A stretch of 64,000 bases of DNA. It comes from Boothiomyces macroporosus (Eukaryota > Chytridiomycota > Chytridiomycetes > Rhizophydiales > Terramycetaceae). This document shows, one piece after another, positions 1-64,000 of this stretch (the stretch's first letter is position 1; every line of letters begins with the position of its first letter). Under the pieces are notes generated by a model that saw only the letters and a program-made list of their open reading frames with translations, did no database searches and was not told where the DNA came from. A program made the translations under genes and the position numbers. The DNA lies in contig JADGKB010000015.1 of the NCBI GenBank assembly GCA_027604185.1, forward strand, positions 1 to 64,000, given 5' to 3'.

Positions 1-555
1 GAAAGCACAGATTCGCTTGCTATCAAAAAATATTTAAGTGAAATACACAGTAATAGCCGATAGTATAATTTGGTGTAATATATTGGGGATTCTCAGTGGG
101 ACTACCAGGTAGTATCCCTCAAGATCATTCTGAAGATGTTCAACTAGTTTCCCCCACAGGACGATTAATTTAGAATAAATTGCAATTTAATCAACTATTT
201 CAATAATAAAATTGGCCATTATCAACAAGAGAGTTTGCTTTTAGACACGGAAATCAATCTCATAAACCATTGTTTAAACCTTCATTTTCTATGGTTAATG
301 GAAGTATTTGATTTCACTGAAATACTCTGCCCGTTCGTCATAGCTAATCCTGCTTCTTATTCACACTAAAGGTAGCATTGTAATCCACTTTGTGTAAGGG
401 AAAGTTAAAAAGCCTGTTTACCAACTGAGCAACAAAGCCATTACTTCCCCACCAATTTACAAGGCCACAGTTGTATTTTTAGTATTATCATGTCAGATTA
501 ATCTCACCTCAGTATTTTGAAATATCCGGACAGTTGGACTTCTTTAACTTTTAAA
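1..555. other. Intergenic region upstream of PDS5, no supported gene
   Basis: No reading frame here can be tied to a gene. Short open stretches exist on both strands. On the minus strand about 110 codons between roughly 260 and 10 are open apart from one stop, and look faintly protein-like, but there is no start codon, splice signal or family match. An AATAAA at 174-179 on the plus strand could serve a gene lying to the left. Treated as intergenic or promoter sequence for PDS5. Confidence 0.4.
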
Positions 556-3500
556 ATGAAATCTAACGATCTGGATTTTCATGAGTCGTTGCAGAACACA
601 ACCACAACAATCTTGTGCAACAGACTGAAAACACTTCGGGGGAAATTAAGAGAAATGAACCAGCATGATTTGAACAAGGATTCGTTCAAAAAGGTCATTC
701 CTCAATTGCACAATCTAGTTGGACATCGGGACAAGTACGTAAAGATACTTGCCAGTTGCTGCATTGCAGATTTACTTGGATTATTTGCGCCTGATGCCCC
801 GTTCACCAATTCACAGCTTAAGCAGATTTTTCAATTGTACTATAGGCAATTAAAAATTCTCGGTGATCCAAATCATGACCATTTTTCATTAGCATTTGAA
901 TTACTGGAAACCATTAGTAACACTGATCAAATTGTTTTGTTTTGTCACCTTGACCAAGATGATTTGATAACATCTTTGGCTTCGGATTTTATTGAATTAA
1001 AAGCATCATCAACCGTTCAAGTACACCTTCGCACTATTCTGCAACTCATTATTGAATCACTAAACACCATTCCGGACTCGTTTATTGATCTCTTATTGAA
1101 CAACATGAACAAAATGACAATAGAACTGTGTGACTTGTGTTCGGACAAATTGCAGCGCTATGTAGTTTTATACTTTAGCAATCGCTTAGTCAGTAATATT
1201 GACGAGTTGAATGAATTGAAAAAGCTTCATGAGTTGATTTTAAAGATTTTTGAAAATTGTCCGAAATTGCTATTGAATGTAGTTCCACTGTTAGAAGAAG
1301 AACTAAAGGTAATTGGAATTAACAATAGGTTGAAAATCAAACTATCCGTCAAATTGCTTGCACTTGCCTAGGTGTAATGTTTTCGCAAAAAGGCAACAGA
1401 TGGATTGAGTTCTACCCGCATGTGTGGAAGTCTTGGTGTGAAAGGTCGGATTATCTAATCAAAGGCGCCACGATAAAATAGCTGTTATTAGATTAGAATG
1501 GGTAGAATATTTAGGGACAATTATCAAGTTAGACCCATCTACTGTTGGAATTGCAGAACGTAATTGATTTTAAATTAGAATATCTTGTTGAAAAACTCGC
1601 AGATCCTGATCATAAAGTCCGGTCCTGTGCTATTAAAGTGTGCGGTGAAATTAGCATTATGCATTTGGATCTACTATCAAATAGTATAATCAAAGAAATG
1701 GGCACTAGATGCAGAGACAAGAATCAACTATGTAGACAGGAAGCAATTGTTGCATTAGCAAAACTCTTTAATTTACATTCAAGTAGATATCCTGAAGTTC
1801 CTACAACATTGCTGAATCTCCTATACCTTGGTGACGAGGAGGTAAATATAGTTGTAGAGAAATGCTTGGTAGATTATATTTTCCCAAAAGATGAAGTGCC
1901 TGCAAAAACGAAAAGGCTCGTGGAAGTCTATTCAAAGTTGGATGACAGGGCAAAAAATGCGTTCCACTCTGTTCTTTCGAAAATGAATGGCACAAGTAAA
2001 AACTTTGGAACACTCCTGGAAAAATGCCTGGATAAGCAAAGAGATGAAGAAATATTGGAAAAGATTATTGGTACGAAATGCTTACTGTAGATTTTTTATG
2101 TCAACGACTTCCAGATCCAAAGAAAGCAAACGAAGCCTTCAAGAAATTTTTGAATCTTAAAGACCGGAGATTGTATCAAATTATGCAAAAATCAATGAGT
2201 CCGAAAAGCGATTACCAAGATATTTTGAAATACAAGAAAGATGTCAAATTAACGTTGGAAAAGCATCCCGCAGTAAATGATGTGTTGTCAATTTACGTTA
2301 ATAGAACATTTCTAGTGATTATCAACAAGAACATTATTGAAGGGCTTCTGCAAATCATCCAATCAAAGAGTGAACTGTCTGATTCTGCCGAATTATTAAT
2401 TAGAAACATTTCAAAGTTCTATCCTGATTTGTACAAGACTCAAATATCAAACTTTTGTACAATGATTCAGGACGGAATAAACCTGGATGAGACTATTCAA
2501 GCATTGGCACATGGAGTCAAAGTGTTTCCGGATGAATTTCCAAAGTCTCCTGAAATAGTCCAGGTTTTATTGCATCTTGCCTTGTCAGGAGATTTGCTTT
2601 GCAGTCAAAATGCAACCGTTATTCTTTCCAAATGCGGATATGACAATGAATGTAAACAAATTCTTCAAGTAAGTATTTATTAATGAAGCTTGCCGATAGT
2701 TTGACGACAGACTATGAAGATCTAGTTCCTAAGCTTGGATCATTGCTTGCACTTTCGCTACACAATACTGCTCTTTATAACCAAAAGAATCAAGAGATTA
2801 TGAGATTTATTATCACCCAAGTACTCATGAAGAATCACACTCGCGATTCAGAACAAGATTGGGTCGAGTTTAACGAACTCAACAATGAATCAAAATCAAA
2901 AGTCTTGGGAATCAAGATTCTAGTGAAACCTCTTTTGGTGGAAAAGAATGAACAAATAGCTCAAAGTGTTGTAAAACTTTTGAAAACAATAATTTTGAAT
3001 GATGGAGAATTGCTAAAGGATGAATCCACTAGCCCAGCTACCAAGAGTCATCTACGTTTAGTTGCAGGAAAAAGTTTACTGAAACTTGCACAGCAGTACA
3101 GCATTGACGTTCTTGATATCCACTTATTAGGATATTTAGTTCAGGATTCAATCTACAATGTGCGCAACTTGTTTGTTGCAAAATTGTGCAAATACATTGC
3201 ATGCAAGAAACTTCCTTCAAAGTATGTCAATTTGCTGTTGCTCTCCGCAGTAGAACCAGATGCAGAACTCCTCGACAAAGTCCGATCATTTATAATTAGA
3301 AGCTCAAAAGAGTTCCAAAAAGGTATTTACACACTAACTAGTCTCTCCTGTAGAACAACATTTTGCACACTTTGTTCATTTACTTGCCCACCACCCAGAT
3401 TTTAGTCTTGAACATAAAGACTTGCAACAATTCGAATCTTATATCAAATTCTATCTTGAAGCGGTTTGCAACCAGGAAAATATTTCACTATTGTACTATA

Positions 3501-3910
3501 TATCGCTGCAACTAAAGACAATTCAAGACAGACATGGTAAATCTTCTAATCTATACATTGTCTCTGAATTGTGTCAATTGATTATCCGCGAAGATGCTGC
3601 TGAACACAATTGGTTGCTCACAACATATCCAGACAAGATCGGAATATCCAGAGAGCTATTTGAAAAGCTTGATCACAACGAAGCGACGGAAAACAGCAAA
3701 AAGATCTATTTGGAAGAGATTGGGTACAGCAGTACCAGAGGAAAGAAACCAAAGCAAGTAGTCCGAAAGCGGGAAAAGGATGATGAAGACAAGGAAAACA
3801 AAAAGAAGCGCAAGGAAAAAGAAATGCAAACCCCAACAAGAAAAAGCACCCGTCAACGCAAAGTAATCTCGCCAATGGTTGAGGTAGATTCAGACGAAGA
3901 TTTCCAATAA
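556..3910 (+). CDS. PDS5: Sister-chromatid cohesion protein PDS5
   Basis: PDS5 is a HEAT-repeat regulator that binds cohesin on chromosomes and controls its release and maintenance. The N-terminus carries the family signature around HRDKYVKILASCCIADLL, followed by an APDAP motif. Downstream lie a WVE helix (IRLEWVEYLG), a KLADPDHKVR HEAT repeat and a Lys-rich acidic tail typical of the family. Exons are 556-1308, 1329-1444, 1465-1559, 1579-2070, 2091-2668, 2689-3322 and 3342-3910, giving 1078 residues. The six introns are 19-20 nt and each junction rejoins conserved HEAT sequence. I chose the ATG at 556; the frame is open a little further upstream but has no earlier ATG. The stop sits inside an AATAAA. 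It is convergent with centrin, with 10 nt between the stops. Confidence 0.9.
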
Positions 3911-12304: not shown

Positions 12305-14219
12305 ATGGAGGACGCTGCTAATTCGACACTAGCTTCCAATTCAACATTTATTGATAATGTATATGAATTTTCAACAAATTTGATCAGCAATCCAGTTCAA
12401 ACTCTGATCGATAGCCCAGCATTCGTCTTGTTTGTAATTTCATTAATCGTGATTCCAATTATCCTTCAAAAGCTTTTCCCAGCAATGGCAACAGTATGAT
12501 TTTCGTTAATAGTAGAAAGAAGAGACTCTTGTTGGAGAGCTATTGACTGATTTTACTCGTGCGAGCGTAGTAGAATCTACGGATTTGTTGTGGGAAGTTG
12601 GTGTGTCTGCAAAAGCTTGTTCAGTTTCTGAAAACGGAGTATTAAAGGCTATTGAATTCAGCGAAGGAAAACCAAATGTGAAGCATGTCGTTGGAACTAT
12701 AATGAAAGCAATTCTTGATCCAATTGGTAATAAGAATTAATATAGACGGAGCGGTGCGAAAGCCTAAAGTTTTGATGTTCTTGGATACTTGCTTGTTAAA
12801 GGATAACGAAAAGAACCAGATTACAAAAGAACTGAAAGATTATGAAATGGCAATTGTTAGTTTGAAGCAGCTGGAGGCAGATTATCCTGCATTATTCGCC
12901 GAAAGAGCCAAAGAAGTGGAGATATTTGCTCCACAGCAGCCTGCAGTTCAACAACCAATGAAAATGAACCCTCCTCCACCAAGAGGATGTTTTGCTTGCA
13001 GAAAAGATATTCCTGGAAAAGCTTCACAATGTTCAGCATGTAAAGCCGTTATTTACTGTTCTGCAGAGTGCGCTGTATGCCTTTTTTAATAGTAGAAACA
13101 AAACTGGCCAGTTCACAAACTAAATTGCAAAGAATTCAAAGCAGCTGTCGATCACCTTCAAGAGTGGGATTTGCACAATCTTCCTTTTGAATACTATAAT
13201 AAGGGCTCTCAGCTTCAAAATTACAATGTCGTACCATATCTTACCACTGTCAATAAGCACAATGTCGGTTTATTCCAAAGATTGTGTGGATGTTTCAATG
13301 AAGCGCCTTGGGGTGTATTAGCTGCTAGACTGATTGCTCACTATCAGCAAACTAAGCCGACTCCAGATCAAATGTTTGCTACATTAGGTTTACCTCAAGA
13401 GATGTTCCCATTGTCAAAGCCTTTTGATGAAGGTATATTTTATTAATGATCAGGGTTTGATAGTTCGTCAATTGATTCATGGGAAAGTTATTTTAAATCA
13501 AGAGGATATTCATTTGATAATCCATCTGCTTTGATTTTGGAAGTTCCTCTTACCATCCACCATATGATTAACCAATTCCATATGAAAACGGCTGCACCTG
13601 TCCCTGAAGGAGGTAATTCGTTGTTAAAGCAGAACGTCGACGTATCACGATTCATCTTGTTGGAGTTGAAAAGGAAGCTGATCTTTTACCTCTGTTTGAA
13701 TGCTTGTTGCCATTTTATCCAAAGACTGATATCGCTATTCATATGATTGGAAATAAGATTTGCGCTGATATTCCACCTCAACAAAGAGCTATGATGATCA
13801 AATCACAAAGCAATGATTCTTCTATCTTTATTTCTCTCAATCCTACCTTCTACGCCCCTCAACATCTTGATGCTAGCGCTTTCCAACTACCTCCTGAAGT
13901 ACCGAAAGAAGTACTTTTGCAACAAAACTTTGGTACAGATAAACCAGATTTGGTCATCTGTCTGAACGCCGGTTTAATCACACAGCAGGAATGGGGTCCT
14001 TTCCTCCAAATGGTATGCAAGAGCGATCGCAAACTTCTGGTCACTGAAAGAGTTGAAACGCTTTGCAATGCTGCCCTATTTAACATTCCAAAAATTGGTG
14101 GAAAGCCTGGAGTTCAAACTCATCCTAATCCATTCAGACAGCCGCTTTATGATTTCAAGAAAGATGTCAACTTACCTGGATGGTCAAATGGATTTATTTG
14201 CGGAATTGGGGAATTTTAA
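12305..14219 (+). CDS. Membrane-anchored MYND zinc-finger protein with Mss51-like C-terminus
   Basis: Exons are 12305-12493, 12516-12726, 12746-13074, 13096-13432, 13454-13612 and 13633-14219, encoding 603 residues. Residues ~38-60 form one hydrophobic span (PAFVLFVISLIVIPIILQKL). The MYND finger (CFACRKDIPGKASQCSACKA followed by YCSAECAKQNWPVHKLNC) is complete only after the 21-nt intron at 13075-13095 is removed. The C-terminal ~270 residues (RRITIHLVGVEKEADLLP, NAGLITQQEWGPFLQM, GWSNGFICGIGEF) resemble the C-terminal domain of Mss51-like MYND proteins. Exon 1 alone looks like a 64-residue tail-anchored protein, but its TGA lies inside the first intron. The precise role is unknown. AATAAA overlaps the stop. 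Confidence 0.75.
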
Positions 14220-14267: not shown

Positions 14268-17200
14268 TTATTCAGAAGCTTCAGGAGGAGCTTCATCTGG
14301 AACTGTATCGCCAACAATAACAATTTCTTTAATTTCGTTTCCTTGCTCATTTAGTACCTCAGCGTCAACATCTATCGGCTCTGCCTCACCACCTTCATCA
14401 TTTTCATTCTCCATTTCTTCGTTATCCGTTTCCACATCACTTTGTGCGGATTCAGCAGTTCTAGCCCTTTCAAAGATATCAGGACGGGCCTTTCTGGCTG
14501 CAAGAGCGATATCACGCAGTGCCATTGACGAAATAAGCCAATCGCAGATCAGCTGCGCAGGTAATGATCCCTTTTGTTTTGTGTCACTCCATGAAAGCAC
14601 TAGGGTCAAATTATCGCCTACATTTGAGAATTTTCTTTGCTCTTTTGATCCTAATTTTCTTGTGGACTGAAGTAGGGTCAAATTCCAAAATCATTTCCAA
14701 CAAGGACATGTTAACATGCTTCACAGTATCTACCCACAGTTTCACTATATTAGGATTTCTTACAGTCTTTTGGTTGATGGCCAAACAAGTACAAAGCTCC
14801 TTTAATAATTCTATGCACTGACTGGGGTGGTTTTCTGTAACTTCTCATTTCTGCAATTGATTTGGAATCCAGTTGTGCGATCCCTTCTCTTGCCTGAAGC
14901 AACATCACTTTGCCAAACAAGACCTTGCGTTTAGATACTTCATCTATTATTTCACAATCTGAATTAACGATGCTTACCCAAATCTTCTTTATGGAATTCG
15001 TATCCAAAGGATTCATTTGCTATTTCCTTCATCGCCTTTCCTAGTGCAGCAGAGTATCTAGCAATGTCTTCCTGTTTATCAATTGAATCTGTTGCTATTT
15101 GTAGTACCGCAACGCATTTGCCATTTGACGGAGTAAACACAGGTACTAGAGTGCTATGCGATTCAGAGCTTATACTTTTTACTCCTGTTCCGAACGTATT
15201 CAGAATCTGATCATACCTAATTTAGAGCTGGTTTACAAAGAGTGCCCCTCTTCCAATTTCAACAACTGTGCTGTTATTCCTGCGAAAAGTGGAGACCCAA
15301 ATACCTCTTGTTGTATATTATCAGTAGCTGTGACAATATTCCCTTCAGTCAAAGTATACAGCTCAGCGTCACTTTCAGCCAAGAAAACGTTGACTTCACA
15401 CTCCAGTCTCGCTTGGATAAACTCTTTGGCTGAGAGAGCTAAGGCAATTGCCTTTTGCCTTGCATCTACAATTTCCAAGAGTGAAGATACAATTTGACCA
15501 GATTTCTAGATTAACTGTAAATTACTTCTAGGAACATGGCATCTGGAGCGTCAAAGGATTCACCGCTGAGAAGGAAATCCAGTGTACCAAACCTTTGGTC
15601 ATGCGAAGAGGTAAATGGAACCCCAATAAAACTCATTTCGCTTTTGGCTGATGTTAAAGCTTCAACTGTAAAGAACACATCTTCGTTCAAGTTAACATCT
15701 GTTCCGACTCTAGGCATTTTAATTACATTTCCAGTAAAGAACATTTGATAATCAATCCCTTTTCCTTCAGGAATCTTCAATCCACACAATTTGTCTTTCA
15801 AATCTGGGCTAGTTGCAATCACGCGAAGATAAGTGTCAATAACAGAGTTTCCTACAACAGTTTCATTCTCCTTCAACTTTTCTTTTCCTTCAATCAATTT
15901 TGTGGATGATTCTTTGAGGGCCAATCTTGAGTACACTGAACTTTCTGGATAAATCTTTGTGAAACACAGAGAATAGATATCTACTACTTTACTACACGCA
16001 TTCGCAATATTCAAATTGATGTCTTTGGCAAGCATATGGAGACTCTTGATTGCCTCACTCTCTGCCGAATCCCTAGTTTGCCGTTTTGCTTCAGAGAACT
16101 GTATTTGCTCCTCCTCTAATTTATCATTTTGTTGTTTTTCTTTGATTAATGCTTCCAAGCAGTTTGCAAGTGTTTGCGCATCCTTTTCATTATAATCCGT
16201 GGAATGTTCTAAAATCTGCACAACTTGTTCCAATTTAACCTTGTCTTTTGACGCAAGATGAGATTTGAAAACTGTCAGCAATCGCCCTTCATCTGATGCA
16301 CTATCAAAAGACTGTAACCCAATGTTGATAATTTGCAAGAGGTACGGGAGCTCCAAAAACCCATTTTTCTCTGGTACTTTCTTTAGGATACCCATGATGA
16401 TGAAATGAAGAGCTTCACCTATTGCAGGAGTTGCTTCTTCACCTTCAACAGGAGTCTGTAAATCTTTTGATTTAGAGCCGGGCTCTCCTAAGAACGATTG
16501 ATCCAATTTATCCATAATTTCTGCTATTTTTGACGCTTCAGATTTTATATGCTCCATCACCTGTCTGTAATTTTCCAATCCAAACTCTCCCAACAAGCAC
16601 TTCATGAAACGAACGTACGCGGTTTCTGCGAATGCAATTGCAGGGTTGTTATTTTCAATTATTTCATCCTCCATGTTGGCAGTTTTCACAAAGGTAAATC
16701 TTGGATCCTCTCGCCCAACACAAAAACCTAGACACGCTTTCTTGATTGCATCTCGCAGTAACGGATTTGGAATGTTCATTATTTGAATAATTGGCTGGAG
16801 TTGCTGTAACCAATCTCTAACTACTACAATTTTTGGGAATTTGGGAATATATAGTGCTTCTTCGAAAAGAGTCGCCATTTCTGTGCCTTTACCGGATAGG
16901 ACAGACGACAAAACTCGTAAGAATGTAGTAAGCTCGTTAATGTTCCAGTTGATCATTAGCCTTAGGAATATTTTAACGTAATATTCATTATCCCATCTTT
17001 CAATAGTAGCGCAGTCCAAAGAGTAGAGTGGTTCATTTTCGTCATAGTACTTGTTGTACTTGTTCGCTTCTGGGAAGGGTGTATTCGGAGTAGTCAAAGC
17101 CTCGATTAGACCCAGCACCTTTTGATAAATCTGTGTGTCTGCTTGAATATCCACCGATTTGCTAACGTTTGTAAGTTCTTCTACCTGTAATTAATCAAGG

Positions 17201-17847
17201 TATACAATTTCATGTCGGAATAATTCACCCGGGCTTTTTCTCCATAATGAATTGATCCATAATTTAAATGAGAGTGATAAAAAGTCTGTGTACTGTGCTT
17301 TTGTTTCTGCAATTCGCGCTAGCCTTTCCTTTTCTTCTTGTTCTCTTCGCAGCCGTCGTGCTTCAATCTCTGCAAGCCTTTTTGCCTCCTTTTCTGCTTT
17401 AAGATCTATTATCCGTTGATTGAGTGTTGAGGAGATTTCTTCCAGCCGTGTAAAGTAATGTCCGGGATTCCTGTAGCTATATATCGGGTTATTGCGGAAT
17501 AGATATTGTGCTTGATTAATTTTAATTGTACCTAACCAATTTAAACAGTCAAATTTCTCTGCAGGCTTGTCAGTTTCCAAAGCATCTTTTTTAACCAAGA
17601 GATATTTGGTAGATTCATAAGACAAGTTCCTCTTTTGCATTTCCTTTAATAATTGTTCTAGTGCGTAAATAACAGTTGGTAAAGTAGTGGTTAGTAGATA
17701 AGCGCGAGTTTCAAGTCCATCCTCTGTGACATTTTCCAAGAATTTGTCTGCTAGTTGATTAATCGCCATATATCTGATTTCATAATCATTCATGTGCCTA
17801 TCCTTTCTGGAACTGGCTATCAGGCTCTCAACAAACTCTGTATCCAT
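14268..17847 (-). CDS. EFCAB5: EFCAB5-like flagellar protein with GAF domain
   Basis: This large protein (1152 residues) matches EFCAB5-type proteins linked to cilia and flagella. The central part has a GAF-like domain (ALALSAKEFIQARLECEVNV onward, including STLVPVF and VLQIATDS). After it come a segment with SIAEMRSYRKPPQSVHRIIK and one ending in EFDPTSVHKKI, both typical of the family, then an acidic tail. Exons run 17847-17206, 17184-15526, 15505-15237, 15216-14978, 14958-14764, 14744-14622 and 14599-14268; introns are 19-22 nt. Start choice: the ATG at 17847 leaves 59 nt after the upstream gene. An in-frame ATG at 17913 would overlap that gene's stop. No intact EF-hand loop was identified, so the name is by overall similarity. 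Confidence 0.7.
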
Positions 17848-19339: not shown

Positions 19340-22300
19340 CTATTTTGGTGTCGACTAATTTCAGGCTTTGTTAACAGGAGTGTTTTTTGGCAGGTTTGAC
19401 ATTCATATGAATGCCTAGTAGCATCTACTTCTGCGGGGTTACTTTTTGAGGCATTAGCTGCATCTTCTGCATGATGTTCAGCATTGACTTTGTTAGAAGA
19501 CACCTCGCTTATTTCCATCGGCTTTGGTAATTTGAATGACTCCAATTCAGTGTCAGTAACTTCTCTTGGACTGATATAGTACCTGAAATTCGGAGTAGCT
19601 TGAATCATTAGATTCTCTTGTACTTCCGAACTGTAAGGTTCATAACCGAATATAGAGCTAATGTTAGTTAAGCGTAATTTTCTAACAACATATTCCACCT
19701 CTGTCTCGACCAAATCGACCAACTTATCAGTAACATCAATATCTGATAAAGATTCAATTATATCAGTACTTGTTAATTCAATCCATGAGTTACGCATTTG
19801 CTTGATGAATAGCGGTACATAAGAAACGGAGTCGAGATTATTATTTTCAAGGACCCTTTTCTTGATATTCCCAGTTTCAGGCTGAAAGACAATACCTCCT
19901 AGCACCTGAGGAATGCTTTGAGAACCAGTTTTTTCAATATTTGATAGTTTCTTGTTTACAACAGTAATCCAAGCATATCGCAACCAGGCGCCAAGTTCCA
20001 ACATCTGAATACTATCTTCTTTGCTCTTTAATTCTATTTCTAACCATTCATCTACCACTAAATGCTTAAAGTTTGGTGATATATCAACAGTTTTAGCAAA
20101 AAGTAATGCTGCAGGTAAAGCGCCAAGTCGAGTTACATTCATCAAATATGGTTTTGATGTCTCTAATATTTCCGTATAGCATAATATATCTATTTTAATG
20201 AGGGACTACCTCTATACGCTCTTTTGGAGTGTAGCGATTCAAGATCATTGCTATTTGGGTCTGGGGGAACAGTTTCCTCCCCTTGCAGCAGCTCTGGCTG
20301 ATAGGCAAACACGCTTGTTGGAAGTATACTTAAAAATCTATTCATAAGCTACAAAGTACCGTTTGTTTTTCGTATGGAATACTTGGTCAGACGGTCCCCG
20401 AGCAAAGTTATTCTCATCTGGAATTGCAATATTAGGGTATAATCCAGAGCACAGAATCAGCTTTAGGATAGATATTTCTCTTTTTGAAAGAAGGGTAACG
20501 TCCGACTGTATTAATAAATCTTGAGCATCATGTGAAATTTTGAATTCCAGTTCCTGAACTGTATCGTCTGCATTCTCATCATCGTTGTCAGAATTACTTG
20601 CGATTTCAGTGTAGCCTTCCTCTAATTTCAGAAATTTCCTTGTCGTTGCCCGACTTTCCCGCTTTCGTTTTTCTAAAAGTCTTTTTTGAACTCGTTTCTG
20701 ATATTTGGGCATATCTTCTAATCTTTCTAGCATTTGCTCTTCAGTCTCGACTTCGCCATCATTTCGAACATATGATTTCAAGATACTTTCAAATTGGGAT
20801 TTTAGTTTTACTATTTCATACATTCTTTGTTCTTCAACTCCTCTACTTTTAGCCCATTTCTTTGTTTTTTGTCCACTCGACTTTTCTTTTAGCCATTCAG
20901 CAAAGATGTTCATCAATGTAAATGGGTCGCCGTGGACCGAATGCATCTCCCTTCGTTTCTGACGTTAAATATAACCCAACCTGCGCAATTCTGCTTTCTG
21001 ATTCCTGAACTCTGGTGTAGGGAGACTGTATGCTTAACACAGCTGCGATTGCCAATACTGGAGTTACTAATTCGCTAACAGACCCGAGAATTAACATTTT
21101 TCCGAATATAGTCTCCACAGGCATGGATGATAATACTCTACCAAGATTTGTAATTTCAAATTTTTCATCCAAACAACCAATATTCACCAGTTTGATTATA
21201 GAGTTGGATATATTTTCCTCACTTGGCTGCTCAATGAAATCAAACGAGAGAGGATCACCAATTCCTAGTGATTTGATTGATAGCACAGTAGAGTCTAACG
21301 GCATTCTTAAAATTTCTGGAACAGGAAAATCGTTAAATCCCTCATATTCTGCTTTCGAGTAAAATCTGTAGCATTCGCCTGGTCCTGTTCTTCCAGCTCT
21401 GCCCGCCCTAAAATGAACATATTCGGTACCTTTGCTTTGCGCTAGACTTACTTATCCAGTATTCCGATAGTTTGGAAGAATTCACTAAAGAATCATGCCC
21501 AATTTCTTTAACTTTTCCAGAATCTATAATGAATCTAATTCCATCAATTGTCACACTAGTTTCCGCTATATTTGTAGAAATAATGCACTTTCTAACTCCC
21601 TCAGGTGCGATATCAAATACTTTTTCTTGCTCCTCAACAGATAAACTACTGTGTAACTCCAAGACAATCCACTTTCTAGTAAAGGCTGCATACTGTCTTA
21701 ACTCTTCCGATAAAATTCCTATTTCATTCATTCCACTAACAAATATCAATAGATCGCCCCGCTCATTTGAAGGAATTTTTTGATCGATTCGTTCCAATAT
21801 CTTTAAATATGGACCTGCATTAGACTATTTTACCTGGCTTGATTTTAATGCTTCTAGATGGGATAGAGTGCCTAATTTTCGATCCCAGTCTTTCTTGAAC
21901 GGCTTTGGGGTCTGTTAAATTTGAATCAGGTTCATCCACTTGCATATATTCAATTGTCACAGGATACATTCTACCAGGTATTTCTATAATCGGAGCATCA
22001 AAATATTTACTGAATAGCTCTGCATTAATTGTAGCCGACATCAGCACTAGGTGTATATCTGGTCGGTATTCCATCATTTTTTTCAATATTCCAAGCAAAA
22101 AGTCTCCTGTAATATGTCTTTCGTGCACCTCATCTATGATGATGACATTGTAGTCTTTTAGGTATGGGTCAAGAGCAAACTGACGCAATAAAACACCTTC
22201 TGTCAAAAACAACACTCTAGTCTGATTAGTTTTTGATCCATCAAATCGGACTTGATAGGCAATTTCAGAGCCATACTGGTTTAAACTTTCATACCTAAAT

Positions 22301-22751
22301 CAGAATGATATTACGATACTCTCTTGGCAAGAGAGTAGCATGCGATCCTTCTTGGTTGAGTGCATGCAATTTTGTTGAATCCGGCTTCCATTAAATATTG
22401 CGGTATCTGTGTACTCTTTCCAGCACCAGTGTCTGCAGCTATTAAGACTACTCTATTATCCCGCACAGTATCAACGATTACTTGTTGGTACTTTTTCACG
22501 GGCAATCCATCTCGTTCGTTTTTAATTTTAATCGACAGTTTCTCCTTCTTCTTTTCAAGGAAGTCGTTAAACAGTTCCAATGCTCTTTTCGCATAATCAA
22601 ATTGGTTGTGGACCTCTGGTTTGGCTTGCTTGTATTTTTTATAGAATACAACAAAATCATCGTATTCGTGCGAGTATCTTTTGAATTGGGCGATTCCTTC
22701 TTTTCCAAATAGAAAATCAGCGGTGGTTTTGTTCCATGGTTCTCGTTCCAT
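19324..22751 (-). CDS. DHX34: DHX34-like DEVH-box RNA helicase
   Basis: DHX34 acts in nonsense-mediated mRNA decay in animals. The 1100-residue product has motif I DTGAGKS (residues ~107-113), motif Ib RVSYE, the variant motif II DEVHER (~200) typical of DHX34, motif III SATINAE, and motif [15 protein letters not shown]. The winged-helix/OB region carries [11 protein letters not shown]. The C-terminus has a CxxC-H-C zinc-finger-like [20 protein letters not shown], as in DHX34. Exons are 22751-22315, 22294-21834, 21814-21430, 21407-20981, 20958-20360, 20337-20210 and 20189-19324, with six introns of 19-22 nt. Introns cut RVS|YE and QR|AGRAGR. The ATG at 22751 gives MEREPW, matching the family N-terminus; the frame opens further upstream without an ATG. 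AATAAA overlaps the stop. Confidence 0.87.
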
Positions 22752-33592: not shown

Positions 33593-35116
<1,524 letters not shown>

Positions 35117-38063: not shown

Positions 38064-38069
38064 TTTATT
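38064..38069 (-). terminator. AATAAA overlapping the PRP22 stop
   Basis: On the minus strand the TAA stop (38070-38068) is followed directly by TAAAA, forming the hexamer. Confidence 0.45.
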
Positions 38070-41000
38070 AAAAAGCTTGGCTGTTGTAGATAGCAGCAGC
38101 TTGTCTGGAGAGACGCCATTCGTCTGTTTTCTGGTAACGATTGTACAAAGGCTCGAGGGTTTCGTTCTTCTTTCTTTTGGACAGTGCGTTTGCATCCACC
38201 TATGATTAATAAAACAACTTACTGCTTTGTAGTAGTTTGGAGCTACTTCCACGAGCCACTTGGATTCAATTGAGATTACTTCCCTCATGTATTCTTTAGT
38301 TGTCATCACCAATCCATGGTAAATTACCCATTCAGGCTGTTTGTTGAATAATGCAGATGACGGATGAATGTGTACTGGGGTACCTTCAACTAGGGTCTTG
38401 TAGCCTTCGGTTGCATCCTTTTTCGCTGCGTGTCTGAAAAATCCACCGCAAATAGCTTTGCGCACGTTATCATAGTTTCTTCCACAAGACACAATATCTT
38501 GCTTGTATCTTTCCATAATACCATGCATCTGTTTACGAATATCTTGTGCTCTTCTCATGGATCTATTCTGGATAAAGTTTTCATGGCACCACCCGCTTGA
38601 AAAGTTGCTGTTTCTCCATCCCTCATACACTGCAAGCAAAGTCAAATGGTCGCCCTCAGGCTGATGAAACTTTGCCTTTTTGGAATCTGCCTGTGATTGC
38701 TTTTCTTTTGGCCTGTAAAATACGTTTTCCGCAGTTAGCATTGCTACAATTGTCAACACTTCTTCTGAACATCCCAGTTCTACCGAAAACATTAAAGTTT
38801 TTGCAAGAGCAGGATCTAGAGGGAATTCTGCCATCTTTCGGCCAATTTTGGTCAACAGTCCTTCATTATCCAGAGCCCCAAGCTGGAAAAGCAATTCGAG
38901 AGCCGTAATTAACGTGTTTATCGGTGGAGGATCCATAAAATCAAAGTTGATCAAATCATTGATTCCCATGGCTTTCAGTGTAAGCACGATGATGGACAGA
39001 TTCATTCTCTGGATTTCGGGAACAGTGTTCATCATCATTTCGTTTCTATATGCGTTTTCAGTATATAGTCGGTATGCCCTATTATTAATGACAATTACTT
39101 TCCAGGCCCAGTTCTTCCAGCCCTACCACTTCTTTGACGTGCTTGCGCTTGTGAAATAGGAACAACAACCAGAGCATCCATTCCCAACTTGGGATCGTAG
39201 GTGTTTTGTTTGACAAATCCAGGATCAATAACATAGAAAATACCATCAATAGTGATGGAGGTTTCGGCAATGTTGGTGGCAATAACAATCTTTCTAGCAC
39301 CAGGAGGTGCAGGTTCAAAAATCTTGGACTGCATTTCGGACGGTTGGGCAGAATAAATTGGCAAAATAATAAGCTCTGGAACTGAAGAGCCAAGAGCTTT
39401 CATTCGTTCGTAAAGCACTTCACACGCAGTATCGATTTCTTCTTGACCAGTCAAGAAAAGTAGAATATCGCCAGGTGGTTCAGACAAGTGAATTTGCATT
39501 GCTGTAATTAATGCAGAGTCTAAATAATCTGGTTCGGGTTCTTTTGCATACAATACTTCAACTGGGAATGTTCTTCCAGGAATCGTTAGAATTGGACAAT
39601 TGAAAAAATAAGATGAGAATCTTTCAGCGTCAAGTGTGGCAGATGTGACAATCAATCTTAAATCAGGGCGTTCCTTGACAGCCTTCTTTAGCAAACCAAA
39701 CAACACATCTGTCGAAACAGTTCTCTCGTGCGCTTCGTCCAGTAACAGCACTGAATACTTTGATACTTTAGGATCAATCAAACATTCACGCAAAAGCATA
39801 CCGTCCGTCATGTACTTGATTCTTGTTTCTGGAGAAGTGCAATCTTCAAAACGGATTGTATATCCTACTTCCTGTCCTAATCGACATCCAACTTCCTCAG
39901 CTACACGCTTGGCTACCGACATGGCAGCCACTCTTCTTGGTTGGGTACATCCAACCATACCTTTGCTGGCAAATCCAGCCTCTGCTAGATATTGCGTGAG
40001 CTGTGTGGTCTATAGTTAATAAATAGCGAACCTTTCCTGAACCAGTATCTCCCACAACAATTAGAATCTTGTTATCCTCAACGGCTTGAATGATGGTATC
40101 ACGAAGTTTATAAATTGGAAGGGAAGCCCTCTGATCCTTGATGGACAAGCTAGTAATTTTTCCAAAAGTAGTATTAGTGTTGAAAACCTTCTTTTTCCAT
40201 TCAGGTTGTGCCTTTTGTGCGGTATCTTTCTTTGGAGCCATAGGATCATGATAGTTTTGGTTTGCTAATTTTTGATCTGCTTCATATTGCTCTATTTGCT
40301 GTTGTGCTCTCAGTTCTCTTCTTTCCTTTGCCAAAGTTGCACCAGTTAGCGCAGCCCTGTTCAAAGATCCGTCTGGATTCTTTACAATTTTGATTGGTGA
40401 TAAAGTTATACTCTGTTTTGTTTGACCAGCCAGGAATGAAGGTTCTAATTCTTGCACTTCTACATCCAATTCTTCTTCCTTATCTTCATAGTTTAACAAT
40501 CCATGTTCTTCATCAAATGTAGGATAATCTTTTGGATGTAGCACTCCAGATGCAATCAATTGCTTGATTTCATATCTTTCTGGGGAAGTGAATCGCTTTT
40601 GCTGCGGTTTGGCAAATTCGTCATCTTTGATCAACTCCTTATTTCTTTCTTTTCTAGTTAGAGATTCGGATAAATCTTTTCCAGTTTCTTGATCAACATC
40701 TTTCATTGACAGACCAATTCTTTTTCCAGCAATAGACATTACTTTTACTTTGATTCTATCGTTCCGTTCAACCACGTCGGAAGGATGGGCTACTCTTTTA
40801 TTCGCTAGCATTGCAGAAATATGCACCATACCTTCTGCTTTGGATTTGATTCCTTCCAATGCAACAAATACTCCAAAATCTTTAACAGACGTTACTCTTC
40901 CATTATAAATCTTGTAAAGAATAGGCTCATCATCCAATTTTGGTCTTGATCTTCCTCTTTCTTCAGATCTATCTCTTCTCCTTCTGTCATTATCTGGAGA

Positions 41001-41552
41001 GCGCCTTCTTCGTCTGTCATCCCTATCTCTTCTTTCATCTGGAGAATCTCTCAAAGAACGTCTTCTGTCTGAATCTCTAGGAGAACGTCTTCTTTGTTCA
41101 GGTGAAGAGTTTCTTTCCTTTTTTCTTGAAGCTTCCTGCAGCAGCTTCTCTTTCAGTTCTTCCTCTTCTCTTTTACGTTTTAATTCATGCTCTTCTCTTA
41201 ATTCTTCTTTCATCATTTGCTCAATTCTGGCATGGTCATCCTTTACTGCCAAACCTGGGAATAAAGCCTTCTTATCCACAGTGTCCTTTTCCCAGCTTTC
41301 TTCCTTCTTTTTCTTCTTCTTTTTGGGCATAATTGTGTGAATCAAACGGTCGATATTCTCTATAAATGAAACAGGAAATTCAGCTCCAATTCCTTCCAGT
41401 TTCTTTTTAAAGTCAGTCAGGTCCTTGGATTTCCTGTTGAGGTTGATTATGAATTCTGCAAGAACTTTGTCGTCCATTCCTGTATGGTTGAATAATTCCT
41501 TTGTGATTTTATCAACCAGTGAGAGATATTCCAATTTTTCTAGATCAGCCAT
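38068..41552 (-). CDS. PRP22: Splicing helicase PRP22 / DHX8
   Basis: PRP22 is the DEAH helicase that releases spliced mRNA from the spliceosome and helps proofread 3' splice sites. The product (1139 residues) has a Lys- and RS/RD-rich N-terminal region, an S1 domain ([20 protein letters not shown]), motif I GDTGSGKTTQ, motif II DEAHER, motif [11 protein letters not shown] and motif [14 protein letters not shown]. The C-terminus ([20 protein letters not shown]) is recovered only after a 23-nt intron is removed. Exons are 41552-40032, 40009-39099, 39078-38223 and 38199-38068; introns are 22, 20 and 23 nt. The first intron falls directly after the Walker A Lys. The start at [10 protein letters not shown] matches the family. 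Confidence 0.92.
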
Positions 41553-41795: not shown

Positions 41796-42241
41796 ATGGG
41801 AGGGTGTTGTTCAAAAAAAGAGGACGAAAATACAGTAACCAGATAATAATAGCAGGTAGATGAAACCACAAGGCTCATAGACACTATACCAGAGCAGCAT
41901 GAAATTGAGGAGCCAAACAAATTGACCAATATTGTATCTACCACTGCAGAGTACATATCCCATAACCTAGTTTACTCATTGATATATCAACAACAAAGAT
42001 GCTGGATAAAATGTTGCCGGAAGCCATGGAGCAGCGATCACTAAGATACCAGTACAAAGTAGCTAACCAAAGGCAAAGAATTGAACAGATAGTTCTACCA
42101 AAGATATCGGAAATCAATTTCACTCCGCATTCAACTGGGCCGCCTTTACTGACCCTTGAGCAAGTAGCGATGATGCAGGAAAAATTAGATAATTATCAAC
42201 CAGAACAATTAAAAGTAAATAAACTAGTACTATCATTGTAA
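41796..42241 (+). CDS. LAMTOR1: LAMTOR1-like Ragulator anchor
   Basis: The N-terminus MGGCCSKKE has a myristoylation Gly and palmitoylation cysteines, as in LAMTOR1/p18, which tethers the Ragulator to lysosomes or vacuoles for TORC1 signalling. ETTRLI, DLLIDISTTKML, the MEQRSLRYQ helix and LPKISEINF follow the family layout. Exons are 41796-41834, 41853-41950 and 41971-42241 (135 residues). The first intron can end at TAG (18 nt) or at the adjacent CAG (21 nt), adding or removing one Gln. It is divergent from PRP22 across 243 nt. Identification rests on the lipidation signature plus weak similarity. Confidence 0.62.
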
Positions 42242-42380: not shown

Positions 42381-43737
42381 ATGTCAAAAGGAAAAGTATT
42401 GCTCGCTTACTCTGGTGGTTTAGATACTTCATGTATCTTGGCTTGGTTAATTGATCAAGGATACGAAGTTATGGCTTACATGGCTAATATCGGCCAAGAA
42501 GAAGATTTCAAAGCTGCCGAACAGAAAGCTCTTAAAATTGGAGCCACCAAAGTATTTATTGAAGTATTATTGAGCTAATGTAGGATATTCGCCAAGAGTT
42601 TGTCAGCGATCTTGTCTGGCCAGCTGTGCAGTCCAATTTAATCTACGAAGTACTTGGTTTTAACCATAGGGAGTCTATTTGTTGGGTACCGCATTAGCCC
42701 GTCCAGTAATTTGCAAGAAACAGGTAGAAATAGTCTAATCAAGATTGAAATTGCAAAGCGCGAAGGTTGCCAATTCGTTTCACATGGTTGCACAGGAAAA
42801 GGAAACGACCAAGTCAGATTTGAATTAGGCTACTACTCTTTGCATCCTACCATTCAAGTAATTACTCCATGGAGAGATCCTGGTATACAGTTTTTAATGT
42901 AGCATTCTTTAATAAATTTCCAGGAAGACCAGCACTCCTTGAATATGCCAAATTAAAAGGAATTCCAGTTGTGCAAACTGCAAGCAAGCCATGGTCTACT
43001 GATGAAAACCTGTATCATATCTCATATGAAGCAGGTATCCTCGAAAACCCAGACCAAACTCCTCCAAAGGATATGTGGAAGCTTACTGTTGATCCTGAAG
43101 ATGCTCCAAACACTCCAGAACGTCTCTCTATCCACTTTAGCAATGGTATTCCTGTTAAAGTTGAAAATACTTCCAATGGCAAAATAGTAGAAAAGGATGA
43201 TTTGGCTCTGTTTTTGTATCTAAATGAAGTTGGGAGAAAACATGGTGTTGGCCGTCTGGATATTGTGGAAAACAGATTCATTGGTATCAAATCTAGAGGT
43301 TGTTATGAAACACCTGGCGGTACTATTCTTCGTGCAGCTCATGTTGATTTGGAAGGATTAACTCTTGATCGCGAAGGTAATTTTTACTGATCCAGTTCGT
43401 AGATTAAAGGATCAATACACTCAGAAACTAGCTGAAATCATTTATAATGGAATGTGGTTCTCTGCCGAAAGAGAATTCCTAATGGCAAGTATTGCTCATT
43501 CACAAACCGTCGTAAATGGAGTTGTTAAAGGTACTTTTAGTTAACTCAGTTAAATTGTTTAAGGGAGCGGTTTATATTGAAGGAAGATCATCACCAAACT
43601 CTCTTTACGATGAAAAGGTAGCTTCTATGGATGAAACTGATGGGTTCCATCCTGAATTCTCTGAAGGCTTTATTCGTATTACTTCAATTCGTTTGCGCGC
43701 ATATATGAACCAAAAGGAAAAGTTTCAAAAACAATAA
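42381..43737 (+). CDS. ASS1: Argininosuccinate synthase
   Basis: The enzyme joins citrulline and aspartate using ATP in arginine synthesis. The N-terminal pyrophosphatase loop [35 protein letters not shown] and [20 protein letters not shown] are all present. Seven exons (42381-42563, 42584-42649, 42670-42723, 42744-42882, 42903-43376, 43396-43530, 43550-43737) give 412 residues, the typical eukaryotic length. Six introns of 19-20 nt all contain TAA or TGA near the acceptor. The exact fit of this well-conserved enzyme makes it the clearest proof of the intron sizes. The ATG at 42381 gives MSKGKVLL; upstream frame has no better start. The stop lies within AATAAA. Confidence 0.96.
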
Positions 43738-43914: not shown

Positions 43915-45111
43915 ATGAAATTCAATCTGCTTTTCGCAATTGCAAATTGTTTAAGCTACAGCAACATTACAAAAATAGTTTATTCGAATGAAAGCGAGAA
44001 GCAAATCGACGGATTCTTTTCAACCGGTGGCCATACGAATAACTGGGCGATTCTCGTAGATACATCAAGGTTCTGGTTTAATTACAGACATATTGCAAAT
44101 ACACTCTCCATTTACAGGACAGTCAAGCGGTTAGGGATTCCCGACTCAAATATTATACTGATGTTGGCAGATGATGTTGCTTGTAATTCTAGGAACCCTG
44201 TTCCTGCAACTGTTTATAATAGCTACTTGAGAAAGTTGGATCTGTATGGTGACAACATTGAAGTAGATTACAGAGGGTATGATGTCAATGTGGAGAATTT
44301 CATTCGATTGCTGACTGGTAATATTCTTTAATCAAAGGCAGACATGAAGAACATACCCCACGTTCTAAAAGGCTTTTGACTGATGATAGATCGAATGTAC
44401 TAGTGTATATGACTGGCCATGGTGGAGAAGACTGTAACTACCACTAACTGTAGTTTTGAAATTTCAAGATAATGAAGAGCTGGGATCGCAGGATTTGGCA
44501 GATGCTTTTGCGCAAATGTACGAAAAGAAAAGATACCACGAGCTATTGTTTATGATTGATACTTGCCAAGCTGCTTCCATGTACACCAAGATTTACTCTC
44601 CAAACATTCTATCTGCAGCATCAGCGAAATCTGGCGAGCCTAGTTACTCTCACCATGCAGATAATGACATTGGTGTTGCTGTTATTGATCGATTTACTTA
44701 TTACAATCTAGAGACTTTTGAAAAAATGGAGCGAGATGATCAGCAATCCCTAGCCAAACTAGTATTTATCCTTAATGATAGTTTTCTACTTATAATCCGC
44801 AATTAATGCACTCTCATCCAACTGTTAGAGGTGACCTATTCAAAAGACACCTGTCCAAAACTCCAGTTACTGATTTCTTTGGAGGGGTGCAGAGTGTGGA
44901 ATTAACAGCATCAAAGACCAAATTAGCAGAAAAGAAGACAATTATTCCTACTGAGAAAAAGGTCTTTAAAGAATTGCCCAAGGTGCATACTAGCAATTTA
45001 CTTTGTCCTACCACTTTTCTAGAAGCGATTCCGTTGAATTTTTGGATTGGATTAGCCCTGTTTATTACATTATCTGCTATATCTATTGCTGCAGAAACAA
45101 AGCCAATATAA
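43915..45111 (+). CDS. GPI8: GPI transamidase catalytic subunit GPI8/PIG-K
   Basis: GPI8 is the cysteine-protease-like subunit that transfers proteins to GPI anchors in the ER. A signal peptide ([15 protein letters not shown]) precedes [18 protein letters not shown]. The catalytic His is in [15 protein letters not shown] and the Cys in [11 protein letters not shown]. The C-terminus has [10 protein letters not shown] and a single membrane anchor ([16 protein letters not shown]). Exons are 43915-44317, 44338-44433, 44454-44761 and 44782-45111 (378 residues), with three 20-nt introns. The second intron falls just after the active-site GHGG. It is convergent with the next gene, 21 nt between stops. 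Confidence 0.94.
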
Positions 45112-48779: not shown

Positions 48780-50289
48780 ATGGAAGGCTTGTTAGCAGAA
48801 GAATCCCCACTTGCCAGACTAGCATGTGTGATGGTCGGCTTGCCCGCAAGGTAATATATTTGTAATTCAAGAGGGAAAACATACACTGCAAGGAAAATTA
48901 CTCGCTACTTGACCTGGTTGGGACATCGTTCAAGAATTTTTAACGTTGGAAACTACAGAAGAGAAGCTGTGGGAGCAGAAAAGAAAGCAGACTTTTTTGA
49001 TCCTCAAAATATAGAATTTTCTACGCAAAGGGCTGCTGTCGCGGAAAACGCTCTAAATGATATGTTGGAATGGCTTTGCAAGGGATCGCCTCACCAAGTA
49101 ACTAGCGCGGCTTTGAATTCTCCCTCTCTGGGAACACCTTTAGGTGCAGGACTTGCTCCGTATCGTCAGATGAGCGTTGCTGGTGCCGGGGTATTTTTTG
49201 GTTAACAGCAGGTTGGTGGCCCATCTAGGATAGCGCTGTACGACGCAACAAATTCAACTAAAGAGAGAAGGCAGTTTATATATGATCGATGTTGCGAAGC
49301 CAACATTAAAGTATTTTTTGTAGAAAATATATGTGATGATGACAATCTGATTATGCACAACATCAAGGAAGTCAAATTAACTTCTCCGGATTATGTAGGA
49401 TGGGAAACCCAGGATGCGATAAACGACTTTATCAAAAGGATCGAACACTATGCGAAATCTTACGAGTCCATCTCTGCCGACGAATTTGGAGGGGCAATTT
49501 CGTTTGTTAAAATATTTAATATTGGAAAACAAGTAATTGCAATGTAACATAGGTAACAACAAACAATGTTCACGGTTATTTAGAGTCCCGCATTGTATAT
49601 TTTTTGATGAATCTCAATACTGTACCTAGATCGTTTTATATTTCAAGACACGGAGAATCAATGTATAATTTAGAAGGGAAGATTGGCGGAAATTCTAATC
49701 TTTCTCCGCAAGGAATATCTTTTGCTCAAAAGCTGCAAGGGGTTATCGAGTCAAATATACACAATCACGAGAAATTGATCATCTGGACATCAACATTGAT
49801 TAGGTACGCTGTTATTTATTGTAGAACAATCCAAACCGCTTCGTTTTTGAATTATCCAAAATTGCAATGGAAACAATTGGACGAGCTTTCCAGTGGATCT
49901 TGTGATGGCCTTACGTATGAGGAAATTGAGCAACGATATCCCGAAGATTTCATGGAAAGGGATCTGGATAAATGTATATTCATATTAAATTAGTTAATTA
50001 TCGTTATCGAGGCGGAGAATCTTATCGCGATTTGGTCCACAGACTGGAACCTGTCATTCTAGAGCTTGAAAGGCACAAAGAAGAAGATCCGATATACATC
50101 ATTGGCCACCAAGCTGTTGTTCGTGCCATTTATGCATATTTTCATGGGATCTCTCATGAGGAATTACCGTACATTAAGATTCCTCTACACACAATTATTA
50201 AATTAACGCCAAAGGCCTATCACTGTCTGGAAGAAAGGATCGTTGTTGATGTTCCTGCAGTGGATACATTCAGACCAAAGCATCATTGA
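48780..50289 (+). CDS. PFKFB: 6-phosphofructo-2-kinase / fructose-2,6-bisphosphatase
   Basis: This bifunctional enzyme sets the level of fructose 2,6-bisphosphate. The kinase half has Walker A GLPARGKTYTARK, GNYRREA, and IALYDATNSTKERR. The phosphatase half has the histidine motif SRHGES, RTIQTA, DELSSGSCDGLTYEEI and the second His in IIGHQAVVRAI. A ~35-residue Ser/Ala/Gly-rich insert sits between LEWLCKG and GGPSRIAL. Exons are 48780-48850, 48872-49190, 49212-49532, 49553-49803, 49825-49973 and 49994-50289 (468 residues). Introns are 20-21 nt: the first splits Walker A, the second has tandem CAG acceptors, and the fourth is in frame without a stop. Confidence 0.94.
49804..49824 (+). other. 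In-frame, stop-free 21-nt intron in the phosphatase domain
   Basis: The segment GTACGC to TTGTAG lies between STLIR and TIQTA. Family sequences join these directly, so it is called an intron although the frame stays open across it. Confidence 0.85.
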
Positions 50290-55801: not shown

Positions 55802-56540
55802 CTAGTGCTTCACAGCCAATGCCTTTGGCTTTGGTGGTTGCTTTTGTTTCGCGCTGGCAATGATATCATCCTGCGAAGGGTTCATGTACTGTTGCACAAC
55901 CTACGTTAAGATGTGCTTGCCTTGCTAGGAGGTAAACACTGGCCGAAAGCTTCCATCAACAGCCCTTCCTTTGCAATTGCTCCAGCCCAGTCTGCTTCTG
56001 AAACTCGGCCATCACGATCTTCGTCCAGTTTCTTTAGAACCAGATCGACCAAATCTTTCACGCCATCCTCGTCTTCTTCTACTGCCTCCTTGACTAGGCA
56101 ATTCTTTAGCATTTGAAACATCTCTTCTTTGGAAATATATCGATCACCGTTCAGATCGTACACTCTAAAGCAAACTGGATTAGAAGGAATTACACTTTAG
56201 CTTCTCTTCATATCTTCCTTTTAAGAACACCGACATTCCTGAATTAGGATTACAAACCTTTGATATATTCATCATACGAAATGTAGTTGTCTGCATCCAA
56301 ATCAAAGCAGCGAAAGACTTTTTAGTAATGAATTACCTCTGTCCATTATTAGTGAATCATCGACTCCAAATATGTCTGCCAACATGTCTCTAAAACGCGA
56401 CCTGTCAATCTTGTCATTAACGCCAGCGAGCGATGAAAAATGCCTGTTCAAAGTTTCCACTTCTGGCCTTGTAACTATAATTAGATTAGATTACAATTAG
56501 TTATTTTAATTATATCTTCAACAGGTAATCGTCCAGCCAT
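55802..56540 (-). CDS. CLXN: Calaxin (EFCAB1) outer-dynein-arm calcium sensor
   Basis: Calaxin binds outer dynein arms and links calcium to flagellar waveform. The EF-hand segments are [30 protein letters not shown] and [14 protein letters not shown], with [20 protein letters not shown] and [11 protein letters not shown] between and after them, in family order. Six exons (56540-56495, 56474-56337, 56317-56258, 56238-56194, 56174-55921, 55900-55802) give 213 residues, the usual size. Introns are 19-20 nt; the last is GC-AG. This gene is good evidence for motile flagella with outer arms. Confidence 0.9.
55901..55920 (-). other. GC-AG intron, 20 nt, in the calaxin gene
   Basis: The donor is GCAAGC and the end CTTAACGTAG. 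An in-frame TAA inside it would otherwise truncate the protein at SKASTS. Confidence 0.7.
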
Positions 56541-63758: not shown

Positions 63759-63833
63759 TTCGCGAAATTCTTGAATTCTCAATCATTCAAGAGCTCTGAA
63801 TAGCCAGAGTTACGAAAGAGTAATTAAATTGTT

Positions 63834-64000
63834 TTATTCTTCATCGATTGATTGAATATCCACATCTTCCTCCTCTAAATCGTCGCCTTCCTCGTTCCCA
63901 TTTATTGTCTTTTCAATATCTGCCAAGCCTCGTTTTGCAGCAGCGCAACTTGGGAAAATGCTATGTTACTTAAAGATTACTTTAACGCGGTATGGAAATT
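63834..64000 (-). CDS. C-terminal end of a TPR-like protein (partial)
   Basis: Only the end is present: 64000-63981, a 20-nt intron (63980-63961) and 63960-63834. The tail NFHTALNIFPSCAAAKRGLA looks like the last TPR helix pair, followed by an acidic end (EEGDDLEEEDVDIQSIDEE). The gene continues off the right edge of the window. The stop overlaps AATAAA. Confidence 0.55.

Follow-up and report, generated by a model that had tools for sequence, protein, structure and literature searches.

The question raised by the first 64,000 nucleotides of contig JADGKB010000015.1 of Boothiomyces macroporosus (GenBank assembly GCA_027604185.1), a stretch referred to here as the window, is whether the nuclear genome of a fungus can be built on introns of 18–24 nt. 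B. macroporosus belongs to the Fungi (Chytridiomycota, Rhizophydiales, Terramycetaceae) and is presumably a free-living soil saprotroph. An initial annotation, made from the DNA letters, had described introns of 18–24 nt with a mode at 20 nt as the only intron class of an opisthokont genome, and had counted 112 of them (2/24/52/17/14/2/1 from 18 to 24 nt) in 34 of 38 genes. The opisthokont assignment was right, the host being a chytrid, and two deposited B. macroporosus proteins, HK103_001690 and PFKFB, map letter for letter onto the window. The analyses described below indicate that the segments are very probably U2-type spliceosomal introns of the nuclear genome, and that a single class of 18–24 nt (mode 20) very probably replaces the usual fungal introns.

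The length class was examined by a count that uses no gene model, in which the motif GTA...TAAY followed by 1–7 bases including the final AG was tallied by length on both strands. The main sample was 264 kb, consisting of the 64-kb window and 20 other 10-kb stretches of the assembly, and a separate 50 kb was held out. The window contains 100 matches of 18–23 nt, versus 27.9 ± 6.1 (maximum 45) in 50 approximate dinucleotide shuffles. Across the 264 kb, most lengths between 15 and 60 nt gave about 26 matches each, and 104, 127, 74 and 44 matches were obtained at 19, 20, 21 and 22 nt, respectively. The held-out DNA peaked at the same lengths, with 23, 27, 17 and 7 matches versus a mean of 5. Measured against the mean of 30–300 nt, the excess at 18–23 nt was 62 in the window, 182 in the other 200 kb and 52 in the held-out 50 kb. 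Three decoy motifs with a wrong donor gave flat length counts in the 264 kb; decoys with a shifted branch motif or a shifted acceptor gave a weaker echo at 19–22 nt, which is expected because the decoy segments overlap real introns.

Two other lengths stand out in the motif count and are unexplained. Among lengths of 30–300 nt in the whole 314 kb, 136 nt gave 53 matches versus a mean of 31, and 207 nt was also in excess, in the held-out part only.

The same lengths emerged from gene finding. The first gene finder was a codon-pair model that accepted any GT..AG segment of 12–150 nt, without preference for length or motif. In the 264 kb it predicted 101 introns of 19–21 nt versus 8.2 expected under a flat distribution, and 12 other dinucleotide pairs, including GC-AG and AT-AC, yielded only 4–15 introns of 19–21 nt and no peak. 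With codon usage alone and flat intron lengths of at most 150 nt, long introns that swallowed exons were favoured, so that a learned intron model was needed; with the 150-nt limit the learned model still merged neighbouring genes, and for the final count the limit was therefore lowered to 40 nt. The final parser was trained on its own output, and genes scoring below 8 were dropped. The existence of longer introns was accordingly judged by the motif count and not by this parse.

The final parse of the window contains 36 genes, 32 of which are split, and 124 introns, 121 of them of 18–24 nt. The lengths are distributed as 1, 25, 50, 27, 15, 2 and 1 from 18 to 24 nt, with two further introns of 35 nt and one of 37 nt, confirming the mode of 20 nt and the presence of such introns in most genes. 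The total includes known errors. The segment 34460–34480 in the AMPK-like kinase gene was called an intron and is in fact coding, and the two calls covering 55901–55960 in the calaxin-like gene are probably mistaken as well: the stretch is open in one frame as coding, and its translation resembles what we take to be the calaxin C-terminus. The true number of introns in the window is probably around 115–120, to which the earlier tally of 112 comes close. In the 264 kb, 455 of 476 parsed introns are 18–24 nt long, and the held-out 50 kb yielded 101 introns, 96 of which fall in this range. The 143 genes parsed in the 264 kb carry 3.1 introns per gene; 15% are intronless and about 85% are split. 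Genes are closely spaced, with a median intergenic gap of 107 nt in the window. Linear extrapolation to the 15.2-Mb assembly of 216 contigs gives about 26,000 tiny introns genome-wide.

Removal of the introns restores the reading frame in conserved proteins, as had been claimed (coordinates in Table 1). The spliced argininosuccinate synthase (ASS) aligns to the solved synthase 2nz2 with 540 bits and is gap-free at all six junctions. When 34 ASS orthologs were compared (from 120 among 7,872 matches), 31 had no indel of at least 3 residues in the aligned part. For GPI8, 273 residues (39–311) align without any gap across the three junctions. Four of the five PFKFB junctions lie in aligned stretches with no gap at the junction, and the fifth falls within a linker that does not align. 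All five junctions of the pyruvate dehydrogenase kinase (PDK) are in aligned stretches with no gap at the junction, one of them being four residues from a gap; seven of the eight junctions of the AMPK-like kinase are within the aligned stretch, one being two residues from a 4-residue gap.

The ASS orthologs also bear on the age of the introns. The protein of Globomyces JEL0801 lacks residues 62–83, which correspond precisely to the exon flanked by tiny introns 1 and 2; from the shape of this one deposited protein, the tiny introns may be shared with Globomyces. The Quaeritorhiza protein has 19 extra residues, the first of them V, precisely at junction 101/102. This is what is expected of an unspliced 57-nt intron at the same place, which would make the intron position old. 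One Batrachochytrium salamandrivorans protein lacks residues 165–211, and this gap has no relation to the junctions. The closest named match among those listed, from Boothiomyces sp. JEL0838, differs at one residue and is one residue shorter; assignment of the window to that strain was dropped on this ground, as the deposited B. macroporosus proteins match exactly. Two observations on these genes stand apart. In a JEL0866 protein (P0002) the counterpart of a small upstream gene (41796–42241) is fused to ASS, the two being separate genes in the window parse; and one PFKFB protein (P0130) has 17 additional residues inserted two positions away from junction 320, which may represent a further unspliced intron.

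The 455 introns of 18–24 nt have a common anatomy, in which the GT–AG ends were a requirement of the parse, although the 12 other dinucleotide pairs produced no length peak. GT is followed by A in 87% of them, the commonest starts being GTAATT, GTAATA and GTATTT, and the last exon base is G in 45%. Their A+T content is 70%. The branch A of a YTRAY-like motif lies at position 14–16 from the 5′ end in 406 introns and 4–7 nt before the intron end in 417, and the motif is at a fixed distance across the intron length classes. An AG between the branch and the 3′ end occurs in only 25. Near-perfect YTRAY was scored in 434, a generous figure because the best-site score is permissive. Because the parser had learned the last ten intron positions, only the untrained tests provide independent evidence for the motif. 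Retention would cause a frameshift in 340 introns and, in 79 of the 115 whose length is a multiple of three, would introduce an in-frame stop. The donors do not follow the U12-type consensus (ATATCC), and AT-AC pairs have no length peak. The genome shows the features by which ultra-short-intron genomes are recognised, a single narrow class below 30 nt and a branch at a fixed distance from the 5′ splice site.

The core of a normal-looking splicing machinery was found in the assembly. The U6 small nuclear RNA (snRNA) is present, with an ACAGAGA box read by eye, and there are two U2 snRNA genes (C80:60682–60874 and C178:9607–9797), both with GTAGTA. The U1 snRNA, with ACTTACC, scored 68.8 bits, just under the Rfam cut-off of 69.5. 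SF1, Slu7 and Prp18 are above their family cut-offs. U2AF65 read without splicing scored 230.7 bits and contained internal stops; after removal of five introns of 19–21 nt it reached 342.8 bits, above the cut-off of 310.3. An exon-by-exon search for U2AF65 was insufficient alone, as it stayed below the cut-off and also matched in two bacteria. In the parse, the Slu7, Prp18 and U2AF65 genes are themselves split by introns of 19–23 nt. The canonical boxes of U1, U2 and U6, together with SF1, U2AF65, Slu7 and Prp18, make ordinary U2-type introns most likely.

Two losses that such introns might have entailed were rejected. Loss of U2AF65 for want of a polypyrimidine tract is contradicted by the spliced score. 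Loss of Slu7 and Prp18 had seemed conceivable from the short distance between the branch and the 3′ splice site, since in yeast both are dispensable when the two are close; both are present. Two further details of the snRNA loci were noted. The two U2 genes differ slightly on both flanks of the branch-recognition box, and beside the U6 gene two near-identical coding stretches lie in inverted orientation (1–500 and 900–1420 of the U6 stretch L001, by eye).

Comparison with the deposited annotation covered two models, HK103_001690 and PFKFB. The former shares six of the 11 introns predicted in the nucleoporin-160-like gene. The two models contain 17 introns, of which 10 are 18–21 nt long and identical to those of the parse. 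Tiny introns are therefore already in the public models, yet in the two that were mapped they are not consistently recognised. The segment 29063–29155 (+) of the nucleoporin-160-like gene can be read as four consecutive tiny introns (20, 21, 21 and 22 nt) separated by 3-nt exons or, as in the deposited model, as a single 93-nt intron; both readings keep the frame, the first leaving four GAT codons between AAT and TCG and the second a single GAT. At this array a protein of JEL0866, another Boothiomyces (P0122), reads NGSLKLIIDDDS, which on the protein sequence alone fits the same four introns with the second (then 21 nt) retained. The four-intron array may thus be conserved between two Boothiomyces species. 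Further downstream, 29358–29391 can be read as the deposited 34-nt intron or as containing one of 19 nt whose branch geometry is standard, and here the JEL0866 protein agrees with 34 nt.

This 34-nt intron is one of several observations suggesting that the tiny introns are accompanied by a minority of true introns of 25–150 nt, so that there would not be one class only. Lengths outside 18–24 nt account for 21 of the 476 introns parsed in the 264 kb and for 5 of the 101 in the held-out DNA; a parser allowed lengths up to 150 nt placed 99 of 534 introns at 25–150 nt; and the remaining seven of the 17 deposited introns are longer (34, 75, 79, 86, 93, 180 and 369 nt). Other observations speak against it. 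The 25–150 nt calls have no mode and several merge neighbouring genes, and the 35-nt call in the PDS5-like gene is probably an in-frame 20-nt intron (1445–1464) with standard branch geometry. The deposited 86-nt intron (49544–49629) overlaps a tiny PFKFB intron and the 75-nt intron (49750–49824) uses the same acceptor as another; they delete 22 and 18 residues that are kept by the other 27 of the 28 proteins compared. Similarly, the 369-nt (32534–32902) and 79-nt (33190–33268) introns each have one splice site in common with a tiny intron and delete parts of PDK that align to solved relatives, and the 180-nt intron (32069–32248) bridges two genes. For gene catalogues this means that, in these two models, longer introns were partly substituted for tiny ones at the cost of conserved residues. 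The motif count in the 314 kb has no clear excess at 24–40 nt (+8 ± 23), 41–60 nt (+11 ± 25) or 61–100 nt (−34 ± 35). The slight excess at 101–149 nt (+53 ± 39), which comes partly from 136 nt alone, compares with +297 ± 14 at 18–23 nt and does not make a clear second class. The claim that the tiny introns are the only class is thereby supported, and a minority of true longer introns, though possible as a small class, is unlikely.

Much less probable still are two explanations in which the segments are not spliceosomal introns at all. That they are sequencing or assembly insertions, or products of the gene finder, draws on the facts that codon usage by itself gives weak guidance in this genome and that the parser makes some false calls; it is hardly credible given the sharp length mode, the donor and branch motifs that emerged although the first pass made no use of them, the recurrence of the peak in held-out DNA, the fit of the JEL0866 protein to the same array and the exact use of 10 of these introns in deposited models. 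Short, precise and frame-restoring removal would also be a property of developmentally eliminated DNA such as the internal eliminated sequences (IESs) of ciliates, or of some non-spliceosomal excision, and the IESs of Paramecium are likewise very short and bounded by TA. The segments in the window have GT..AG ends, whereas other dinucleotide pairs yield no length peak, and they are not bounded by TA as Paramecium IESs are; the branch motif is at a fixed distance, U1, U2 and U6 carry matching boxes, and the host is a fungus. We regard elimination of this kind as highly improbable.

Several points nevertheless weigh against a uniform class of U2-type introns, in addition to the seven longer deposited introns. 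G at position +5 is found in only 18% of the 455 introns, which is weaker than usual and weak for pairing with U1, and pairing with this snRNA may accordingly be less decisive in Boothiomyces. Thirty-six of the 455 are multiples of three without an in-frame stop, and some of these may be coding, as at 34460–34480. Slu7 and Prp18 are retained. Neither U5 nor U12 snRNA was found in the assembly search, which had no positive control; normal splicing requires U5, and the failure to find it therefore suggests that the search was insensitive. No candidate for RED (RED_N, PF07808), on which human cells depend for introns whose 5′ splice site and branch are close together, was found in the assembly, again with no positive control, and its absence is not claimed. 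Finally, the order and geometry of spliceosome assembly on these introns, as set out next, are what we infer.

Under the interpretation preferred here, that of U2-type introns in one 18–24 nt class, each intron of about 20 nt would be recognised as one unit, by intron definition. U1/U6 would cover the first 4–8 nt and U2 the next 6–8 nt, almost touching. Branching would then produce a lariat whose loop measures about 15 nt and whose tail is 4–7 nt long, and the first AG would serve as the 3′ splice site. According to excerpts of one study, about 52 intron nucleotides are estimated to be required between the 5′ splice site and the branch site if the B complex of humans is to keep its structure, the minimum for this distance in human extracts is near 50 nt, and one substrate no longer supported assembly when it was shortened to 35 nt (PMC6692369). 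Hundreds of introns in the 264 kb leave 14–16 nt for the same span, so that an arrangement like the human one is hardly tenable and the difference from about 52 nt would call for an altered geometry or a different order of assembly. The helices might be shorter and touch each other, U1 might depart ahead of U2 settling, or the shape of the pre-catalytic complex might differ.

As to origin, the tiny introns are probably shortened descendants of older, longer introns at old positions, as the ASS protein of Quaeritorhiza suggests. It is conceivable, and we put it forward tentatively as falling somewhat short of an even chance, that in one lineage of Rhizophydiales the spliceosome no longer requires the usual minimum spacing of 5′ splice site and branch and has gained a ceiling, so that it accepts only about 18–24 nt, including chains with 3-nt exons, and that tens of thousands of ancestral introns shrank to one size. 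If true, a culturable fungus would have a pre-catalytic spliceosome built unlike the human and yeast ones. Boothiomyces, which appears to carry only introns of about 20 nt, is a promising organism for exploring the lower size limit of splicing substrates. Its core snRNAs and splicing factors, as far as found, look normal, and structural and RNA studies in this fungus could address how a large spliceosome deals with a 20-nt intron.

The genes of the window discussed here, and others that carry introns of the same class, are listed in Table 1. The spliced MSS51-like protein matches Pfam MSS51_C and zf-MYND.

Table 1. Positions of split genes in the window and of their predicted introns. Names marked "presumed" are assignments that we assume.
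Gene	Position	Strand	Introns	Intron positions
PDS5-like (presumed)	556–3910	+	7: six of 19–21 nt, one called 35 nt	35-nt call: 1430–1464
MSS51-like MYND-finger gene	12305–14219	+	5, 19–22 nt	
Gene	14268–17847	−	7, 19–22 nt	
Helicase-like (presumed)	19361–22751	−	7 predicted: six of 19–22 nt, one of 35 nt	
Gene	24956–26734	+	7, 19–21 nt	
Large protein, nucleoporin-160-like (presumed)	28304–32082	+	11 predicted, 18–22 nt	
Pyruvate dehydrogenase kinase (PDK)	32130–33462	+	5, 19–22 nt	32230–32248, 32396–32415, 32734–32755, 32883–32902, 33190–33208
SNF1/AMPK-like kinase	33593–35116	+	8, 20–21 nt	33617–33636, 33734–33754, 33805–33824, 33876–33895, 34123–34142, 34274–34293, 34348–34367, 34485–34505
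DHX8/Prp22-like spliceosomal helicase (presumed)	38068–41552	−	3, 20–23 nt	
Argininosuccinate synthase (ASS)	42381–43737	+	6, 19–20 nt	42564–42583, 42650–42669, 42724–42743, 42883–42902, 43377–43395, 43531–43549
GPI8 (GPI-anchor transamidase)	43915–45111	+	3, 20 nt	44318–44337, 44434–44453, 44762–44781
PFKFB	48780–50289	+	5, 20–21 nt	48851–48871, 49191–49211, 49533–49552, 49804–49824, 49974–49993
Calaxin-like (name from the initial annotation; presumed)	55802–56540	−	4 credible, 19–20 nt	56175–56193, 56239–56257, 56318–56336, 56475–56494

Among the matches listed in the open-licence literature, there was no report on such introns in Boothiomyces and none of a fungus with only such introns, although an earlier mention is possible; the intron passages of chytrid genome papers, as far as excerpted, are silent on such sizes. 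The data are public, and we found no paper remarking on what appears to be the intron regime of nucleomorphs and heterotrichs in an ordinary fungal nucleus. The initial annotation had compared the introns with those of chlorarachniophyte nucleomorphs and heterotrich ciliates, and the comparison holds against the portions of the sources cited here; in our view Paramecium (20–35 nt) and the dicyemids (26 nt) would also belong in it.

The nucleomorph introns of Bigelowiella natans and Lotharella oceanica are the closest in size. They are mostly 18–23 nt long, number 1,011 in L. oceanica, and resemble those of Boothiomyces in being GT-AG with few exceptions, A+T-rich, numerous and sharply peaked, with a mode of 19 there and 20 here (PMC4035089, in part). 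Nucleomorphs are relict endosymbiont nuclei whose genomes measure less than 1 Mb and contain about 1,000 introns, whereas Boothiomyces has a 15.2-Mb nuclear genome for which some 26,000 are extrapolated. That the Boothiomyces sequence is itself a nucleomorph was considered and rejected, as the assembly comprises 15.2 Mb in 216 contigs and is Boothiomyces by protein identity. In Stentor coeruleus, according to excerpts of PMC9505925, the branch A is likewise fixed (position 10 or 11), the tail is 5 nt, the U1, U2 and U6 boxes are conserved, and no minor-spliceosome snRNAs were found. Its introns differ in being 15–16 nt long with a weak branch consensus and in splitting 18% of genes, compared with 18–24 nt, a YTRAY-like branch and about 85% of genes in Boothiomyces.

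Paramecium and Dicyema (26.2 ± 1.9 nt, n = 16) share with Boothiomyces a uniform and very short class of nuclear introns, though theirs are about 5 nt longer, and Dicyema is a parasite from which few introns were sampled (PMC2222250, in part). Cryptococcus neoformans is a fungus rich in short introns, but "ultra-short" there denotes less than 60 nt and the mean intron length is 56 nt, according to the excerpted text (PMC11913375). A 20–40 nt bin was analysed as well, so that some fungal introns close to this size have been counted before, though not as the only class. The known cases of introns of such sizes that we met are those of a relict nucleus and of ciliates; Boothiomyces is a fungus.

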